The position numbers were made by a program, and so were the translations under genes. Positions 1-24,626 of a stretch of 29,808 nt of DNA are shown in pieces (positions within the stretch are counted from its first letter, which is position 1; every line of letters begins with the position of its first letter). The stretch is from a bacterium (GTDB lineage Bacteria > Elusimicrobiota > Elusimicrobia > UBA1565 > UBA9628), in NCBI GenBank assembly GCA_021796015.1, contig JAJYOT010000019.1, positions 1 to 29,808 on the forward strand, written 5' to 3'. The notes under the pieces are model-generated. The model was given only the letters and a program-made list of their open reading frames with translations. It was not told the origin of the DNA and did no database searches.

Positions 1-3000
1 CCAGGCCGCGAAGACGCCGTGAACGGCCAGGCTTAAGAACACGCCGAGGCCCCCCACTAAGACCGCCCAGCCGCTGCCGACGAACCAGATTTTATTTTTC
101 GTCAAGATCGCCCGGGGAAGCATCAGTAGATTCCCCAGCGCTCCCATGAAAAAGCTGGGCAGCGCGAGACCCCCGACGCCGGCCGGGTTGACGAAGATGC
201 TGTGAATCTGCGCCAGCGGCATGAACATGAAAAGCGCGGTCGCAAGCCACGCCCCGATATCCTTCCAACGGCTGCTCCATTTCTCGGAAAGTTTTCCGCG
301 CGATTCGGCGATCATCAAGCCCAAGCCCGCAAAAGCCGCGACGGAACCCAGAATCAAGGGCAGCCCGAGAGAGACTCCTCCGGCCGCTCCCGCGAACATC
401 ACGCTGACCCCCGCCGGAAGAAGGAACATTCCCGCCAGCGTCAGAAATTTCTGCCAGGAGTCCCAAATCGAAACGCCGGCGATTTTCTCGGGAAGCTTCC
501 CCGCCCACTTAAGGGCGTTGACGGCCAAGTGCGTCAAAATCAAGGGCAAGGCCGCGAAATAGACCGCCAAGGGAACGAAGCCCGCCCAGGCGACCTGGCT
601 TAAGACCAAGCTCGCCATCACAACCCCGATCGTCTGGACGACGGACGAGGCCATCTCTTTTTGGCCCGTGTAATACGACATCAAAATCCCGTCGGCGAGA
701 ATGCCGGACAAAACGCCCATGAAGGGAATTCCCGATATGGCCGTCAAATGCCCCGCCGAAACGCCGAACAAAGACAGCGCGGATTTCAGAAAAGGATGAA
801 CCTGGGCGAGGTTGACGAAATTTTGCCAGAGTTGCGGCAATTGAAGAAGCCCGAAAACTCCCCACGAGGCCTTAACGAGATTTTGCGTCGCCAAATCCCA
901 ATTTCCCGGGATGGACGCAACCGGAGGTTTCCCCGCGGGCGGTTCCCCGGCAATAGGGAAATGAGAGACGATCCCCAAGCGCGGAACAATCGCTCCAAGC
1001 CGCCTATCTGGAAAATCAAGCCCCGATTTCGGCGGCGGCAAGACCTCCTCGACCTCAAAGAGTTGCGTTCCCCCCGCGTCCAGGCCGATATAAAGGCCGT
1101 TTTTGAGCAGTTCCGCCCCGCTGCGGCGGTAAACGGTCGGAGTTCCGTCTTTCTGGAGATTCAAAACGTCGCGCAAAATATAATCGCGATCCGCTCTCGG
1201 CTTGAAAGCTCCAAAGGCCTCAAGCGTCGGGGAATCCATGTTGAAAAACGCGCCGGATTTTTCCCCGAAATTGGAAACCCCGATGAGCGCCTTTTGAACC
1301 CCGTTTTCGGCATAGCCGGAAGACCAAGCGACGAGGGAAGTCCGAGTCTTCGGAGACAAAACCTCCAAGGCCTTTCCGAGCGCGCCTTTATACTTTTCTC
1401 CCACGCTCCAAAGGGTTTCCAGGTACTTCTGATTGTCGGGATTTGAATTTTTCCAATTGATGAGGACGGGAATGTCGAAGGGAATGGCTTTTTGGGTGTC
1501 GACCGATTTGGAAAGATCTCCGATGAGGTTTTCCGCCTGGCCCACCCCTTGTTCGAGTCCGTTATAGGTGAGAAGCGGGCGGAACAAAAGCGCGGTCAAG
1601 GCCGCGGCCTTGAAATAGCGTCCGAATTTATCGACGGGGTTTCCCTCGCCGCCGTCGTGGGTGCCGATAAAATTAAGTTCGCCGGCCCCCCCTTTCTGCC
1701 ACATGCGGAAACAGACGTTTTTTAAGGCCTCTCTGAGAATATCAACCGAACCCCCGGAGGAAGCCGAGACCATCGCGTCGTAAAGCCCGTATTGCCCGCG
1801 GCTCCCGTCGTGGGTGTTCTTATTGTAGACCGCGCTCGAGCCCGCCCGCGACAGAGCGCTGAAATCCGTATAGGCTTCGTCGAAAAGAGCCGCCGAGGGA
1901 TTTTCTTTTCTCGCGGTTTGGGCCATTTGGGCCATGAATTCCTCGCCGTTCAAATTTTTCCAGCGCGCTTTGAAATCCTCGATGAACCGGGTCAAGGCAT
2001 CCCGCATCCAGCCCCGGGAAGAGTCTCTTTCATGCTCTAAAATAAAAAGCCACCGGGGAAAATAGCGGGCGTTTAAAATTTCATAGGCCATGTCCCGGCG
2101 GACGAAATTCAAGCTCCAGGGGCCGAACATCTTGGCGGTCTGATCCAGTTCCCACTGGCGCGTCTCGGGACGACTGTAATCCATTTGGGCCAAATCCGTC
2201 CACATATCCCCGCCGTAATCGGTGATTGGATATTGAACGAGAATTTTCTTGGACACGAACTTTCCGTTTTCCGGATAATGGTCTGAGTGAAGAAGATAAA
2301 AAGCAGGCTTGCCGTTGCCGTGAAGAGGAACCTGGGCCATGATTTCCTCATCCGACAAGTTCTGGGGCGGCACGACGTGCATGACCCCTTCCGGGAATTC
2401 CTTGATAAAATCGCCGTCCAACGAAACATGATTGGGAATGAAATCGACGCCGACTTTAATCCCCATTTTTTGCGCGCGCTCGATCAGATTTTTAAGCCCC
2501 TCGTCTCCGCCCAATTCCGGCTTGACATGGTAGCCCTTGATGGAATAGGCCGATCCGCCGCCCGTTCCCCAGCGGTGAATTTCTCCAATCTCGAAAATAT
2601 CCATCAGCCACAAGGAATCGGCCTTGATTTGATTCCGAATGCGGGAAAGTTCCGTCTCATCCAGAGAATCCATGAAATTTTTTCCGGATTTAAGGCGATT
2701 ATAGGCGCGCGCGAAAATGAGATAGATGGAGGCTTCTTTCGCCCACAAGGAAGGGTCCAGAAGCTCAAGTTGCGATTGATACTTGGAAACCGTTGAAACC
2801 AGCCAATCGTTTAATCGCGCGTTTTTTTGCTGGGGCGGCAACGAGGAGGAATGAATTTTTTCAAGAGACTTCAAGTCCGGGACCGCGAGTCCCATGGGAG
2901 ACAAAAGGGAATCGAGATAATGGAAATAATCCTCCAGCTGTTCCAGATTTCCCTGGCCCTGTTTTTCCAATTCCAGTTTCGAGTAGAGGAACCCCTCCAG

Positions 3001-3546
3001 ACCCTCGTCCCGAGCCGAGGCCCATTGCCCGGAAGGCAGATGAAACGAAAAAGGGCTTAGGCTTTGACCGGGGAATTTGGGACCGTCGGACAAAACGCCT
3101 TTAAGTTCGGAAACGCTGGGCGCGCTTTTGGCGCCGTTTCCATCAAAGTCAATCCGAGGAGAACCGTGGATTGTCCTTAACTGACCCGATTGATGAATCG
3201 GAGAAAAATTGGAAACCTCCGGGCGCCCTAGCAAGGTCGTCGGAAGCGGGGAAAGAGGCCCTTCCCGCGCGCGATGTCTCTTTTTTTCACTGCGGCTCAA
3301 GCTCCGGCCCGCCGTTATTTTGTCAGGAATCTGCTGATGAATAGTTAGGGACAGTCCCCAACTATTTGAAATTTCCGTTTCCGCGGGAAGAAGAGAACTG
3401 CCCGGCTCGGAAAGGGGAATAGCGACTCGAACAGAAGAAACAGGATCAAAACTATTTTTAATCTCAGCGGCCCATGCGGAAGAATCAAAACCGTTTCCAA
3501 GAAGAATAAGGCCCACGCACAAAAAAGCGGTCGTCTTTTTAAACAT
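1..3546 (-). CDS. Exported GH13 alpha-amylase-like protein fused to a PQ-loop/SWEET-like membrane domain (C-terminus beyond window)
   Basis: Reading from ATG 3546, 1182 codons stay open to base 1, so the stop lies off the left edge. A signal peptide (about residues 1-26, ending AWA) leads into a linker and a helical region, then a GH13 TIM barrel. All four GH13 regions are visible: D368-FIPNH, nucleophile D485 in VRRDMA, acid/base E557 in FDEAY and H630-D631 in GTHDGG, so the enzyme should be active on alpha-glucosidic bonds. A beta-sandwich-like part follows (about 660-810). From about residue 893 the chain is hydrophobic, with eight or so membrane helices and three PQ-loop/SWEET-like units: P904-Q905 in LPQLWQNF, P1044 in FLLPAG, and P1110/Q1113 followed by GVGGLALPSFFMGALGN. 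The start is fixed by AGGA overlapping the upstream stop at 3555. Family calls come from motifs; transport is inferred. Confidence 0.85.
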   Translation of the reverse strand, partial: MFKKTTAFLCVGLILLGNGFDSSAWAAEIKNSFDPVSSVRVAIPLSEPGSSLLPAETEISNSWGLSLTIHQQIPDKITAGRSLSRSEKKRHRAREGPLSPLPTTLLGRPEVSNFSPIHQSGQLRTIHGSPRIDFDGNGAKSAPSVSELKGVLSDGPKFPGQSLSPFSFHLPSGQWASARDEGLEGFLYSKLELEKQGQGNLEQLEDYFHYLDSLLSPMGLAVPDLKSLEKIHSSSLPPQQKNARLNDWLVSTVSKYQSQLELLDPSLWAKEASIYLIFARAYNRLKSGKNFMDSLDETELSRIRNQIKADSLWLMDIFEIGEIHRWGTGGGSAYSIKGYHVKPELGGDEGLKNLIERAQKMGIKVGVDFIPNHVSLDGDFIKEFPEGVMHVVPPQNLSDEEIMAQVPLHGNGKPAFYLLHSDHYPENGKFVSKKILVQYPITDYGGDMWTDLAQMDYSRPETRQWELDQTAKMFGPWSLNFVRRDMAYEILNARYFPRWLFILEHERDSSRGWMRDALTRFIEDFKARWKNLNGEEFMAQMAQTARKENPSAALFDEAYTDFSALSRAGSSAVYNKNTHDGSRGQYGLYDAMVSASSGGSVDILREALKNVCFRMWQKGGAGELNFIGTHDGGEGNPVDKFGRYFKAAALTALLFRPLLTYNGLEQGVGQAENLIGDLSKSVDTQKAIPFDIPVLINWKNSNPDNQKYLETLWSVGEKYKGALGKALEVLSPKTRTSLVAWSSGYAENGVQKALIGVSNFGEKSGAFFNMDSPTLEAFGAFKPRADRDYILRDVLNLQKDGTPTVYRRSGAELLKNGLYIGLDAGGTQLFEVEEVLPPPKSGLDFPDRRLGAIVPRLGIVSHFPIAGEPPAGKPPVASIPGNWDLATQNLVKASWGVFGLLQLPQLWQNFVNLAQVHPFLKSALSLFGVSAGHLTAISGIPFMGVLSGILADGILMSYYTGQKEMASSVVQTIGVVMASLVLSQVAWAGFVPLAVYFAALPLILTHLAVNALKWAGKLPEKIAGVSIWDSWQKFLTLAGMFLLPAGVSVMFAGAAGGVSLGLPLILGSVAAFAGLGLMIAESRGKLSEKWSSRWKDIGAWLATALFMFMPLAQIHSIFVNPAGVGGLALPSFFMGALGNLLMLPRAILTKNKIWFVGSGWAVLVGGLGVFLSLAVHGVFAAW
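3341..3365. repeat. REP-like palindrome inside the GH13 reading frame
   Basis: The arms ATAGTTAGGGAC and GTCCCCAACTAT pair with one mismatch around a central A, with the same GGGACAGTCCC core as 28688-28712. It is read in frame as about residues 61-69 (NSWGLSLTI) in the linker behind the signal peptide of the GH13 protein. Confidence 0.55.
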
Positions 3547-3554
3547 AACAAATC

Positions 3555-4598
3555 CTACTGCAACAAAATCACTCCTCCAGGCTCAAGAGACAAAGGCGGG
3601 TTCTTTCGACCGTTTTGGTCTGAGTTAGCCTTTTTCCCACCTGGGCCTATATAAAACGGAAGAGAAAAACCTGTTTGAGCGATCCAGGCTTGCCCCTTGT
3701 CCGGCCCCGCCGCTTCGACCTCTCCGTTGAAAAACCAATTGGCCCAGGAACGATTCAGTTGCGCGCCAAAAATAACGCTGGCATTATTAGCCGCCGGGCC
3801 GCTGTTTGCCGCCCCCTCAATAGGGCCCAAATTGCCGCTTAAGTCAACGGCCGTCATTCCCGCGTTGACAAGTCCCGTCACGTAGTTGTATCCCAATCCC
3901 ACGAAAGGAATCCAAGCCCCGAATTTCTGGCTGACGATGGCGTTGAGCCCGAAGCTGTTGACGTTCCATCCCAAATTGCCCGACACGTTTTCATTGACCG
4001 GGGTGTTCGAGCCTCCCACGGTGGGAAGATTCCCGGAAAACGAAGTCGCATATCCGAAACGCCCGAAGACGTGATTATAATTCGCCGCGAAAGTCAGCAG
4101 AGGCTCTCCGTCTTCCCCAAAGCAATGCTTCCGCAAGGTGGCTCCAATGGAATTAGACTGCCCGTTTCCGGTCAAGGAATTCGAGAGTCGATAAGACGAC
4201 GGCGTCGTCATATCGGCAAAGCGAAAGGCAAAATCCGATCGCCAGGGAAGCCCGGCTCTTAAATGCATGGTCAGATTTGGGAACAACACCGAATCGGGGA
4301 AGAAATTCTCGACGCCGACCGTCTGAAGAGAGGAATCGAGTTGGGGAAACTGCGCCTTATTAAACGGCATATTTCCAATACCCAGGGATAAATCGGTCTC
4401 GATGCGGCGGCTGGTCACTTCCCGGGGAGGGTCGAAGGTTTCTCCGGCGTTAAAGCCAAGGCCGTTGGCCAATTGTCCGCTCATCCAACCCATCATGTTG
4501 GTAAAATCAGTATCCAGATTTGGATTGGCGACCGTGCCTGCCTGAACAAATTCCAAAGTCATAAACAATAACCCGAATAAAAAAGCCGCCGCCTTCAG
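3555..4598 (-). CDS. Putative outer-membrane beta-barrel protein, apparent CTG start
   Basis: This 347-residue exported protein has alternating hydrophobic/polar, Gly- and Asn-rich strands typical of outer-membrane barrels (GLGYNYVTGL, GAQLNRSWANWFFNGEVEA). The first in-frame ATG (4733) would add 45 residues that only mirror the upstream gene in another frame. Starting at CTG 4598 gives a textbook signal peptide (KAAAFLFGLLFMTLEFVQA, then G) placed 8 bases after AGGAG, which is fused to the upstream gene's TAG stop. The last predicted strand ends TGFSLPF, but about 25 Gly/Pro/Asn-rich residues follow instead of a terminal Phe. It ends 8 bases before the GH13/PQ-loop gene, so the two are translationally coupled. 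A porin-like role for glucans is inferred from that position only; the family is not recognised. Confidence 0.75.
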   Translation of the reverse strand: MKAAAFLFGLLFMTLEFVQAGTVANPNLDTDFTNMMGWMSGQLANGLGFNAGETFDPPREVTSRRIETDLSLGIGNMPFNKAQFPQLDSSLQTVGVENFFPDSVLFPNLTMHLRAGLPWRSDFAFRFADMTTPSSYRLSNSLTGNGQSNSIGATLRKHCFGEDGEPLLTFAANYNHVFGRFGYATSFSGNLPTVGGSNTPVNENVSGNLGWNVNSFGLNAIVSQKFGAWIPFVGLGYNYVTGLVNAGMTAVDLSGNLGPIEGAANSGPAANNASVIFGAQLNRSWANWFFNGEVEAAGPDKGQAWIAQTGFSLPFYIGPGGKKANSDQNGRKNPPLSLEPGGVILLQ

Positions 4599-4609
4599 GC
4601 GGAAAGCTC

Positions 4610-4792
4610 CTATTTCTCGAGCAAACAAGTTCCGCGCTTGATAACCCAGTGATAGCTCTCCTTTAATGTGTCGAAAGAACCGAGAGTCATTTGGCGACCA
4701 ATGACCACTACGGACTTTCTCCTGTTTGACCACTCAAGACGAACTTTGGACGAATGTTTCCGTCTATGTTGATTTTGGTCTAAGGGATTCAT
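4610..4792 (-). CDS. Small basic 60-residue protein of unknown function
   Basis: The start is ATG 4792 behind a strong GGAGG sequence with 9 bases spacing; a longer version from 4828 would skip that site. The protein is basic (HRRKHSSKVRLEWSNRRKS) and has one possible hydrophobic strand (VVVIG). It has no signal peptide or membrane segment. I do not recognise it. Its TAG stop forms the ribosome binding site of the following outer-membrane gene (TAGGAG). It is therefore the first gene of the operon that includes the GH13/PQ-loop protein, 23 bases after a TATATG box and just downstream of the 16-bp motif described at 4815-4881. It could be a small regulator, or a translated leader whose main job is to couple translation into the next gene. 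Confidence 0.6.
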   Translation of the reverse strand: MNPLDQNQHRRKHSSKVRLEWSNRRKSVVVIGRQMTLGSFDTLKESYHWVIKRGTCLLEK

Positions 4793-4814
4793 AGCATTTT
4801 CCCTCCTCTCCTTA

Positions 4815-4881
4815 CATATAACATTCAATGAGGAAGAAAAAATGGGCCAAAGGACCTAGAAAATTTCCGGCAAAAGACCTA
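4815..4881 (-). promoter_or_regulatory. Promoter with 16-bp motif, copy A, for the GH13 operon
   Basis: On the minus strand the motif CTAGGTCCTTTGGCCC (4859-4844) lies exactly 23 bases before TATATG (4820-4815). A second half-site, TAGGTCTTTTG, begins at 4881, which is 23 bases upstream of the TAGGTC at 4858. The position where a -35 box should be reads ATTTTT, so the promoter probably needs an activator at the motif. The same motif and spacing occur at 22554-22613 and 24560-24626. Confidence 0.6.
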
Positions 4882-4920
4882 CTTCCGAAAAGATGAAATT
4901 GGCGAAATCAACTCACTGTT

Positions 4921-21640: not shown

Positions 21641-22546
21641 TTAGGCTCCGGGAGAACTGGGGGTTCCGTCGGAATTATAAAGTTTGTTGACGAGTTCCCT
21701 AATTTTTTGATCGTCTCCGCCCGTGCGGTAAATATCGTAGATATTTTTTATGAAATTCATGGATTCCCGAATCACGGGACTGGCCCCGGCCGCCTGAGCC
21801 GCGTTATTGAGCTGTTGGTAGGTGGTCAACAACTCTTCTCCGGTGGGATAAATCGCCTCGATGCAGTCATATTCCCGGTGAAAGGCGTAACTCTCAACGT
21901 CTTCGGTTGATTCATGACAAATATTCCGGTCGGAAGCGTGTCCCGCCTCGTGAAAGAGAACACAGGCCGCTAAGGGACGCCCGACCGCGACCGAAATAAC
22001 GGCCAAATGGTTATGAAGATTAATCGTGCCGGCCCGTTTTCCCATTTTTTGCCCGCCGCAAAGCTTATTATAAACTCCGAGTTCATTGGACGGAAGCTGG
22101 GCGTAGGAAATACGCTTGTGAGATTCCATCTCGTCAATTTTAGACAAAGTCGCTTCCACCGTCGAATTGGAATTTTGATTTCCATTATTTTCAATTCTAT
22201 CGCGGGCGGCGGAAATTAAGTCTTCAATCGTCGCGGGAGGTTCCCCTAAGGTCGGTTCGATTTTATAGGGGTGGAGATGCGGCCGAATTAAAATCGCGGC
22301 GCCCGGCATCCCGAATTCATAATCGTTCTCGGCTTTCTGATGGATGGCGAAAACGGAAGCGTTTTTGTTCGCGACCAGGCTCATAATTTTTTGGGTTTCT
22401 TGTCCTAAATCCAAGGCATTGGAGGAAGGGATGTTACCTCCAGAGGAGAGATACATGGGGTTTGCGTAAAGAGATGAAGCGGCAAAAGAAAGCGCAAGAG
22501 AAAGCAGGCAACCATACAGACTCTCTATTCTCTGTTTTTGTTCCAT
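21641..22546 (-). CDS. Exported HExxH protein, putative zinc metalloprotease
   Basis: The 301-residue protein has a signal peptide at about residues 1-28 (CLLSLALSFAASSLYA). The centre holds HEAGH at 199-203 (LFHEAGHASD), the zinc-binding and catalytic motif of gluzincin/metzincin-type peptidases. A candidate third ligand is E218 in DVESYAFHREYD. Several Cys residues could pair outside the cytoplasm. No named family was recognised, and HExxH alone does not prove protease activity. ATG 22546 is preferred over 22579 because TATATT lies 7 bases upstream and the signal peptide then starts cleanly. It sits under copy C of the 16-bp motif. Confidence 0.75.
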   Translation of the reverse strand: MEQKQRIESLYGCLLSLALSFAASSLYANPMYLSSGGNIPSSNALDLGQETQKIMSLVANKNASVFAIHQKAENDYEFGMPGAAILIRPHLHPYKIEPTLGEPPATIEDLISAARDRIENNGNQNSNSTVEATLSKIDEMESHKRISYAQLPSNELGVYNKLCGGQKMGKRAGTINLHNHLAVISVAVGRPLAACVLFHEAGHASDRNICHESTEDVESYAFHREYDCIEAIYPTGEELLTTYQQLNNAAQAAGASPVIRESMNFIKNIYDIYRTGGDDQKIRELVNKLYNSDGTPSSPGA

Positions 22547-22553
22547 CAATATT

Positions 22554-22613
22554 AATATAGCAAAGAGACCCCTTTCCATCCTGGGCCTAAAGGCCTAGAA
22601 CTTCTAGGACCTA
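22554..22613 (-). promoter_or_regulatory. Promoter with 16-bp motif, copy C, for the HExxH protein
   Basis: On the minus strand CTAGGCCTTTAGGCCC (22598-22583) is exactly 23 bases before TATATT (22559-22554), which is 7 bases before ATG 22546. An upstream TAGGTC half-site begins at 22613, only 16 bases from the next, and lies within the last codons and stop of the RlmD-type gene. No -35 box is visible. Confidence 0.6.
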
Positions 22614-24028: not shown

Positions 24029-24553
24029 CTACCGCCCGCGTTTAAGGAGAGACTCAATTTCCGTCCACAAATTTTCCATGGTGATAGGTTTGGAAAGGAA
24101 AATGGAGGCTCCGGCCAACAATCCCTCCACCTGATCTCGCGGATCGTTATAGCGGAAAGAAGCCGATAAAAGAACTAAGGGAATCGTTTGGAAACCGTCC
24201 ATCCGGCGAATCAGACGACACAAATCAAAACCGTGAATATCAGGCAAGCGAACATCCACAATGATGACCGCCGGACGAGCAAGCTGAAGTTCTTTTAAAG
24301 CCTCAACCCCGGATGCCGCGCTTTTCGCTTCAACCCCGCGCAAAGACATCACATCTAAGAAAGTCTCGCGAAAATGGGCGTCATCGTCAATAAGATAGAC
24401 AAATAATTTTTTTGAGGAGGGGACCCGGGCAGGCTTTAATTTGCCTAGAGACTTCGGAAGTTCTTTAGCCCCTCCCACCGGAGAAATTCGGTCCTGGCGC
24501 GAGAAAGCGCCTAATTCAACCGCCTTTTCCGATTTTAATTCCATCACGTTCAT
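24029..24553 (-). CDS. Single-domain response regulator (REC only) with N-terminal extension
   Basis: The 174-residue protein has about 47 polar residues and then one receiver domain: acidic cluster D56-D58, phospho-acceptor D100 in IIVDVRLPDIHG, S130 in LLSAS and K155 in LSKPI. No DNA-binding or enzymatic output domain follows, so it should act by binding a partner, as CheY or Spo0F do. The N-terminal extension could carry targeting or a docking site. ATG 24553 is chosen because TATAAT lies 6 bases upstream; the ORF could be extended to 24691 but would then read through the promoter. No histidine kinase is in the window. Confidence 0.85.
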   Translation of the reverse strand: MNVMELKSEKAVELGAFSRQDRISPVGGAKELPKSLGKLKPARVPSSKKLFVYLIDDDAHFRETFLDVMSLRGVEAKSAASGVEALKELQLARPAVIIVDVRLPDIHGFDLCRLIRRMDGFQTIPLVLLSASFRYNDPRDQVEGLLAGASIFLSKPITMENLWTEIESLLKRGR

Positions 24554-24559
24554 ATTTCT

Positions 24560-24626
24560 ATTATATCCTGATTTAAAAAATTCCCTATGGGCCGAAAGTC
24601 CTAGATTTTCAGAGAAAAAGGACCTA
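24560..24626 (-). promoter_or_regulatory. Promoter with 16-bp motif, copy B, for the response regulator
   Basis: On the minus strand CTAGGACTTTCGGCCC (24604-24589) is exactly 23 bases before a perfect TATAAT (24565-24560), which is 6 bases before ATG 24553. A TAGGTCC half-site begins at 24626, 23 bases upstream of the next TAGG, the same spacing as in copy A. There is no -35 box (ATAGGG). Confidence 0.65.

Follow-up and report, generated by a model that had tools for sequence, protein, structure and literature searches.

A palindromic box at a fixed distance from the -10 element marks a candidate regulon of exported proteins in Elusimicrobiota

Three promoters sharing one box

A short motif, CTAGGNCYTTNGGCCC, occurs in three exact copies, all on the minus strand (4859-4844, 22598-22583 and 24604-24589), in the 29,808-nt stretch of DNA analysed here as a whole and referred to as the window. 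Exactly 23 bp separate each copy from a downstream -10-like hexamer, namely TATATG in promoter A, TATATT in promoter B and TATAAT in promoter C, as had been claimed by a previous reading of this DNA based on its letters (hereafter, the sequence-only reading). This arrangement was borne out: in the shuffle control the chance expectation for the exact motif was 0.00, and three copies were reached in none of the 100 shuffles. When up to three mismatches were allowed, seven matches were found in the window versus 5.3 expected by chance, that is, no excess, and therefore the signal resides in the exact copies. The count at chance level would be in line with a merely fortuitous likeness of three sequences within one window, an explanation that we consider hardly credible in view of the shuffle result and that is already refuted by the phylum-wide recurrence of the box with fixed spacing described below.

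The hexamers found at the -35 position of the three promoters (ATTTTT, AGGATG and ATAGGG) are all non-consensus when read from the sequence, again as previously proposed, and a sigma-70 scan of positions 4500-4900 of the window returned no -35/-10 pair. In addition, the TAGGTC half-sites that had been claimed upstream of each box are present, but their distances had been interchanged between promoters B and C: from the start of TAGGTC to the TAGG of the box there are 23 bp in A, 16 bp in B and 23 bp in C. A search of the window against Rfam, with gathering thresholds applied, gave no match and the box sits upstream of the -10 element, so that an RNA element is unlikely. A phage origin of the box was also considered and set aside, with 0 matches among viral contigs.

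On promoter A, the proximal box CTAGGTCCTTTGGCCC (4844..4859, minus strand, as all features described for the three promoters) is an exact match and is kept in the related loci L024, L001 and L003. It is accompanied by a distal box, TAGGTCTTTTGCCGGA, arranged as a direct repeat 23 bp upstream (4866..4881), and by the -10-like TATATG 23 bp past the box (4815..4820). The first ORF after the promoter (4610..4792, 60 codons) is preceded by a purine-rich, ribosome-site-like stretch (GGAGGG) and is conserved in the same three loci, most strongly at its C-terminal SYHWV.KR.TCL.EK, while no match to it was found in Pfam or NCBIfam. A terminator-like hairpin with a T tail, recognised by consensus match only, follows at 4586..4602. 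The second ORF (3555..4733), whose start codon is uncertain, is beta-barrel-like and shows a weak match to DUF6588 below the Pfam cut-off; the third (1..3546) combines a signal-peptide-like start with an alpha-amylase domain match and extends beyond the window. The sequence-only reading had placed a GH13 operon under promoter A. The ORF with the alpha-amylase domain is indeed there, but its link to the promoter is indirect, the 60-codon ORF, the terminator-like hairpin and the beta-barrel-like ORF coming first.

As a separate observation, the protein encoded at 1-3546 on the minus strand of the window and exported proteins of loci L093, L096 and L099 share one layout, in which a signal-peptide-like start and a long low-complexity segment precede an enzyme domain; these domains are of the LOG or FtsH type, often cytoplasmic elsewhere, or of the peptidase/amylase type.

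Promoter B carries the exact proximal box CTAGGCCTTTAGGCCC (22583..22598), with TATATT 23 bp past it (22554..22559). Its upstream element, TAGGTCCTA, also contains an inverted half-site, GGTCCTAG (22604..22611). The gene (21641..22546), starting 7 nt past the -10 element, encodes a 301-aa HExxH protein with a signal-peptide-like start and no match in Pfam or NCBIfam. On promoter C, the exact proximal box CTAGGACTTTCGGCCC (24589..24604) is preceded by the distal box TAGGTCCTTTTTCTCT as a direct repeat 23 bp upstream (24611..24626), and TATAAT follows 23 bp past the proximal box (24560..24565). In this case, the start codon lies 6 nt past the -10 element, and the gene (24029..24553) encodes a 174-aa protein with a receiver domain, in which the domain scan found no DNA-binding domain.

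The window is close to genome G003, which has an SMC protein 93% identical (locus L024) and a protein A 91% identical to those of the window. As G003 is listed in one phylum with genomes that bear the name Elusimicrobia, the window is assigned to Elusimicrobiota. Promoter B is kept in all five near relatives (G001-G005), with one base changed in G003, and promoter C is recognisable in the same number, its box differing at one or two positions while the 23-bp spacing, TATAAT and start are unchanged. The homologue of gene C in G180 keeps 12 of 14 box positions together with the spacing, the distal box and the start, and no promoter of such design was found at the homologue in G009.

Spread of the box and architecture of its promoters

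A scan for the box followed at 23 bp by TATA, carried out on 84,980 genomes with one genome per species, returned 34 loci. Thirty-one of these belong to Elusimicrobiota (18 with Elusimicrobia-type names and 13 placed in the same phylum), and the remaining three (Methylobacter, Parvularculaceae and Neobacillus) were taken for chance matches. The core TAGGNCYTTNGGCCC, defined as the box pattern without the -10 condition and without the first C, is found 4-29 times per genome in ten genomes versus 0-2 times for the reversed pattern. Across 340 genomes of the phylum, 200 contain the core, 183 have at least two copies and 159 at least three; for the reversed pattern the range in this set is 0-4 per genome, and therefore genomes with only one to three cores are not individually secure.

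We then considered 50 sites collected without a -10 condition from G003 (29), G006 (17) and G010 (4). A TAnnnT hexamer stands at offset 23 in 20 of the 50, versus a mean of 1.06 over 52 other offsets (a background that leaves out offsets 22 and 24; offset 24 has three). All sites except one, which falls inside a gene, are intergenic (49/50), compared with about 18% of random positions, and the next gene behind the site shares its strand in 34 cases, lies on the opposite strand in 13 and is out of view in 2. A second box is frequently located upstream: as a direct repeat at 23 bp in 12 and at 24 bp in 3 of the 50 sites, or inverted at a distance of 17 in 11 and of 18 in 7 (18 in total by pattern count), with the proviso that one pair may be scored from both sides. 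The random placement or loose -10 spacing that would have spoken against the regulon proposed by the sequence-only reading was not what the scan of the motif in relatives showed, and the regulon turned out to be broader than claimed, extending over a large part of the phylum and consisting mostly of genes for exported proteins.

A promoter profile was compiled from 68 promoter-type sites after removal of the three loci outside Elusimicrobiota; since many of these sites come from the scan that included TATA, this element is partly selected in the profile. T and C precede the box, and an A/T base directly behind it, at -35, is present in 68 of 68 sites, although the search pattern did not require A/T. 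The distal box appears at about -73 to -58, and the -35 hexamer leaves just a weak trace. If the -10 element spans -12 to -7, the centre of the palindrome RGGNC-N4-GNCCC is at -42.5. As far as sequence geometry goes, this is the layout of a class II promoter, in which the activator site abuts or overlaps the -35 region, at a fixed distance from the -10 element and with a poor -35 hexamer.

These data point to the box as the proximal site of a dimeric class II activator, most likely a NarL/LuxR-type response regulator of the group termed II below, which we regard as the best explanation and as probably correct. Specifically, a dimer bound to the proximal box, centred at -42.5, would adjoin the -35 position of a promoter that has no good -35 hexamer. 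A second dimer would bind one 23-bp step upstream, at about -65.5, in direct or inverted orientation and probably in a cooperative manner, and both would bring the housekeeping RNA polymerase to the -10 element, which is TATAAT-like. An activator next to the -35 position had already been suggested for the window, and the geometry supports it through the spacing peak at 23, the poor -35 and the persistence of promoters B and C in five of five relatives; it is from this layout that we infer activation.

Other readings of the same architecture have to be weighed. The boxes may be repressor or dual-function sites, or may mark another DNA transaction, of which inverted pairs lacking a -10 element would be the purest form. 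This would accommodate the 30 of 50 sites with no TAnnnT at offset 23 and the several sites that are inverted pairs with no same-strand gene behind; however, the sharp 23-bp step to the -10 element and the missing -35 hexamer fit activation, and a same-strand gene lies behind most sites, as counted above, so that we hold this reading to be improbable. More improbable still is that an alternative sigma factor reads the box directly as a part of the promoter, with no separate activator. The fixed distance to the -10 element and the lack of a -35 consensus would suit such a factor, but the -10 element is of the ordinary TATAAT type, and the palindrome, located well upstream of the sigma region, recurs at a 23-bp step beyond it in one or the other orientation, as would be expected of a protein that binds DNA as a dimer.

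In G006, full-box inverted pairs at a fixed offset were observed at loci L065, L070, L073, L074 and L075, the two boxes of L070 facing each other. For one or both boxes, several of the pairs of this genome have no gene following on the same strand, and they have no -10 element at the 23-bp step; terminators, decoys and repressor sites are all candidates for what these pairs represent.

Candidate regulator and its likeness to known NarL-family systems

Regulators were compared between 12 box-rich and 12 box-free genomes, and the LuxR-type proteins were then split into groups by reading their sequences. A LuxR-type HTH is encoded in all 12 box-rich genomes, yet also in nine of the 12 box-free ones. 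In contrast, the NarL-type response regulators that form group II are present in 12 of 12 box-rich genomes (in G003 and G009 they were called on reading the second match, and in G086 on reading its match) and give a strong match in 0 of 12 box-free genomes, where the best matches are at 1e-16 or weaker, or missing altogether. In G180, group II is the only LuxR-type group found.

The search was extended to the 340 genomes of the phylum with the C-terminal part of group II (profile A1), matches weaker than 1e-30 being scored as negative. Regulator and box occur together in 184 genomes, the regulator alone in 15, the box alone in 16 and neither in 125, which corresponds to an odds ratio of 96, a figure that ignores phylogeny and includes many probably incomplete genomes. 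The fifteen genomes with a strong group II match and no exact box are G099, G101-G103, G106-G109, G114, G115, G124, G125, G147, G179 and G183. A relaxed core is scarce in regulator-positive, box-negative genomes (0-6 per genome, compared with 35 in G003 and 18 in G006), and this relaxed pattern is noisy in large genomes (43 in G198 versus 33 for the control). In these fifteen genomes either the box is altered or the regulon has been lost.

The group II protein of locus L156 matches PF00072 and PF00196 above cut-off, that is, a receiver followed by a C-terminal LuxR-type HTH. In L153, the regulator adjoins a kinase in which receiver, HisKA and HATPase domains only were found, and in several of the 41 regulator loci viewed the upstream ORF starts, judging from its first residues, like a receiver-kinase protein. 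The putative activator would thus be encoded beside a receiver-histidine kinase in several genomes. Autoregulation was considered and rejected, as a box near the group II gene was seen in just one of the 41 loci, some of which are repeats. Downstream of the regulator, many of the loci viewed (L153:1862-3058, L154, L156, L166 and others) encode a protein whose N-terminus carries a hydrophobic segment of the QILLPAVLLAPIFILVIYLLFETSK type; neither Pfam nor NCBIfam gave a match for the copy in L153.

The boxes might instead be bound by a different activator with a similar spread over the clade, from a further family or from LuxR-type group I. Four regulator families were compared, and a shared clade pattern alone cannot single out one gene, which gives this alternative some weight. 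However, at least two of the 12 box-rich genomes (G006 and G023) lack CRP-type regulators, five lack OmpR-type regulators and all 12 lack LytTR, the latter being missing from all 24 genomes of the comparison; group I was not found in the many-box genomes G002, G003, G009 and G180 and has, by eye, residues other than K/K/N in its recognition helix. We therefore deem another activator unlikely and, from co-occurrence and the likeness to DosR set out below, infer that group II is the binder. Against this assignment stand the 15 and 16 discordant genomes, the LuxR-type HTH proteins of other groups in nine box-free genomes, the rarity of the box at the regulator genes and the 30 sites that have no TAnnnT at offset 23.

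The residues just mentioned come from the comparison with DosR (DevR), whose base contacts are made by Lys179, Lys182 and Asn183 (PMC4082495). By alignment with 3c3w, taking the chain numbering as native, positions 69, 72 and 73 of profile A1 correspond to DevR residues 179, 182 and 183 (profile position 96 being residue 206, and part 32-96 being ungapped against 1zlk). K69, K72 and N73 are kept without exception in the group II proteins (11 of 11). The K/K/N combination is frequent among NarL-family proteins, and therefore its presence in group II is no proof of specificity.

The DosR box is given as GGGACTTNNGNCCCT, with a weak form RRGNCYWNNGNMM (PMC6448022), and it has the same register as TAGGNCYTTNGGCCCW here; AGGNCYTTNGGCC fits the weak consensus and fails the stringent one at the first G, which is A here. 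The primary DosR site overlaps the -35 region and acts with a second site through cooperative binding (PMC5360333). DosR is a NarL-family regulator with the same base-contacting K/K/N by alignment, whereas the genes of the box regulon code mostly for exported proteins. The domain scan of one neighbouring kinase (L153) found no heme-sensor domain of the kind that goes with the response of the DosR system to hypoxia or NO. In addition, the group II profile matches VraR, GerE and other NarL-family structures better than DevR, which does not indicate orthology to DosR, and group II does not reach the cut-off of any NCBIfam model among the matches listed (best 25 of 117 and of 124). The promoter would work in a DosR-like manner; on the features compared, it does not belong to the DosR regulon.

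Other members of the family offer partial parallels. OsdR of Streptomyces coelicolor recognises the 16-nt palindromic box AGGGCCGATCGGCCCT (PMC5069765), equal in length and register to the box here; the OsdR centre is symmetric, while that of the present box is an asymmetric YTTN, and the two systems have different target genes. In Escherichia coli, NarL activates ogt through two sites, with centres at -44.5 and -77.5 (PMC7419079). NarL belongs to the same protein family as group II, which scores 142 bits against the NarL model with a cut-off of 250; its box differs from the one described here, and its signal presumably differs as well. GerE of Bacillus subtilis has a LuxR-type HTH, and its structure, 1fse, is matched by the group II profile. 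The GerE site, TRGGYY, resembles the half-site TAGGYC; GerE has no receiver domain and acts on sporulation genes.

Genes under the box and significance of the regulon

Downstream genes were assessed on 63 promoter-type sites followed by a gene of at least 90 codons. According to a crude hydrophobicity rule used as a signal-peptide test, 49 of the 63 box-gene proteins carry a hydrophobic N-terminal stretch, versus 44 of 156 other genes from the same sampled loci, a background that rises to 56 of 156 if any early Met is allowed as start. Several of the 14 box genes without such a stretch look like wrong start calls. Thirty hand-picked downstream proteins were scanned with Pfam: 13 had no match, and a transglycosylase, amidases, an amylase, M1 and M20 peptidases, an FtsH-type protein, SpoIID, a diguanylate cyclase and a LOG-type enzyme were among the matches, with a thioredoxin-like one below cut-off. 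The regulon would consist mainly of exported envelope and surface proteins.

In 34 of the 63 box genes the start codon lies 6 nt (25 genes) or 7 nt (9 genes) past the -10 element, so that the transcript would be leaderless; many regulon transcripts would then begin with the AUG itself or with the base just ahead of it. Genes with no box, taken from the window and from loci L081-L100, were also slightly enriched in -10-like hexamers at 6 nt from the start codon (7/134). Since these genes peak at 6 too, leaderless starts are not peculiar to the regulon, and such transcripts may be common in the clade.

In the Elusimicrobiota literature searched, mostly at abstract level, with PMC10783764 included and subscription papers and preprints scarcely covered, a description of this motif or its regulon was not found, nor was any regulon for Elusimicrobiota.

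In a wider sense, one two-component system may act as a common secretome switch for a large part of Elusimicrobiota, a proposal that we put forward tentatively and hold to be somewhat less probable than its contrary. A single promoter code, made of two dimer boxes spaced by a 23-bp step, with no -35 element and often a leaderless start, would place fast-changing exported proteins under one regulator, and the box would have been retained, or arrived at independently, in the form that the dormancy box has in Actinobacteria. This raises the question of why two phyla so far apart, with different targets, both have a DosR-type box and recognition helix. Most of what is known about Elusimicrobiota comes from metagenomes, and the box allows the regulon to be listed in many genomes from sequence alone; it could also predict the start sites of exported-protein genes nearly to the base and offers one named regulator for testing.
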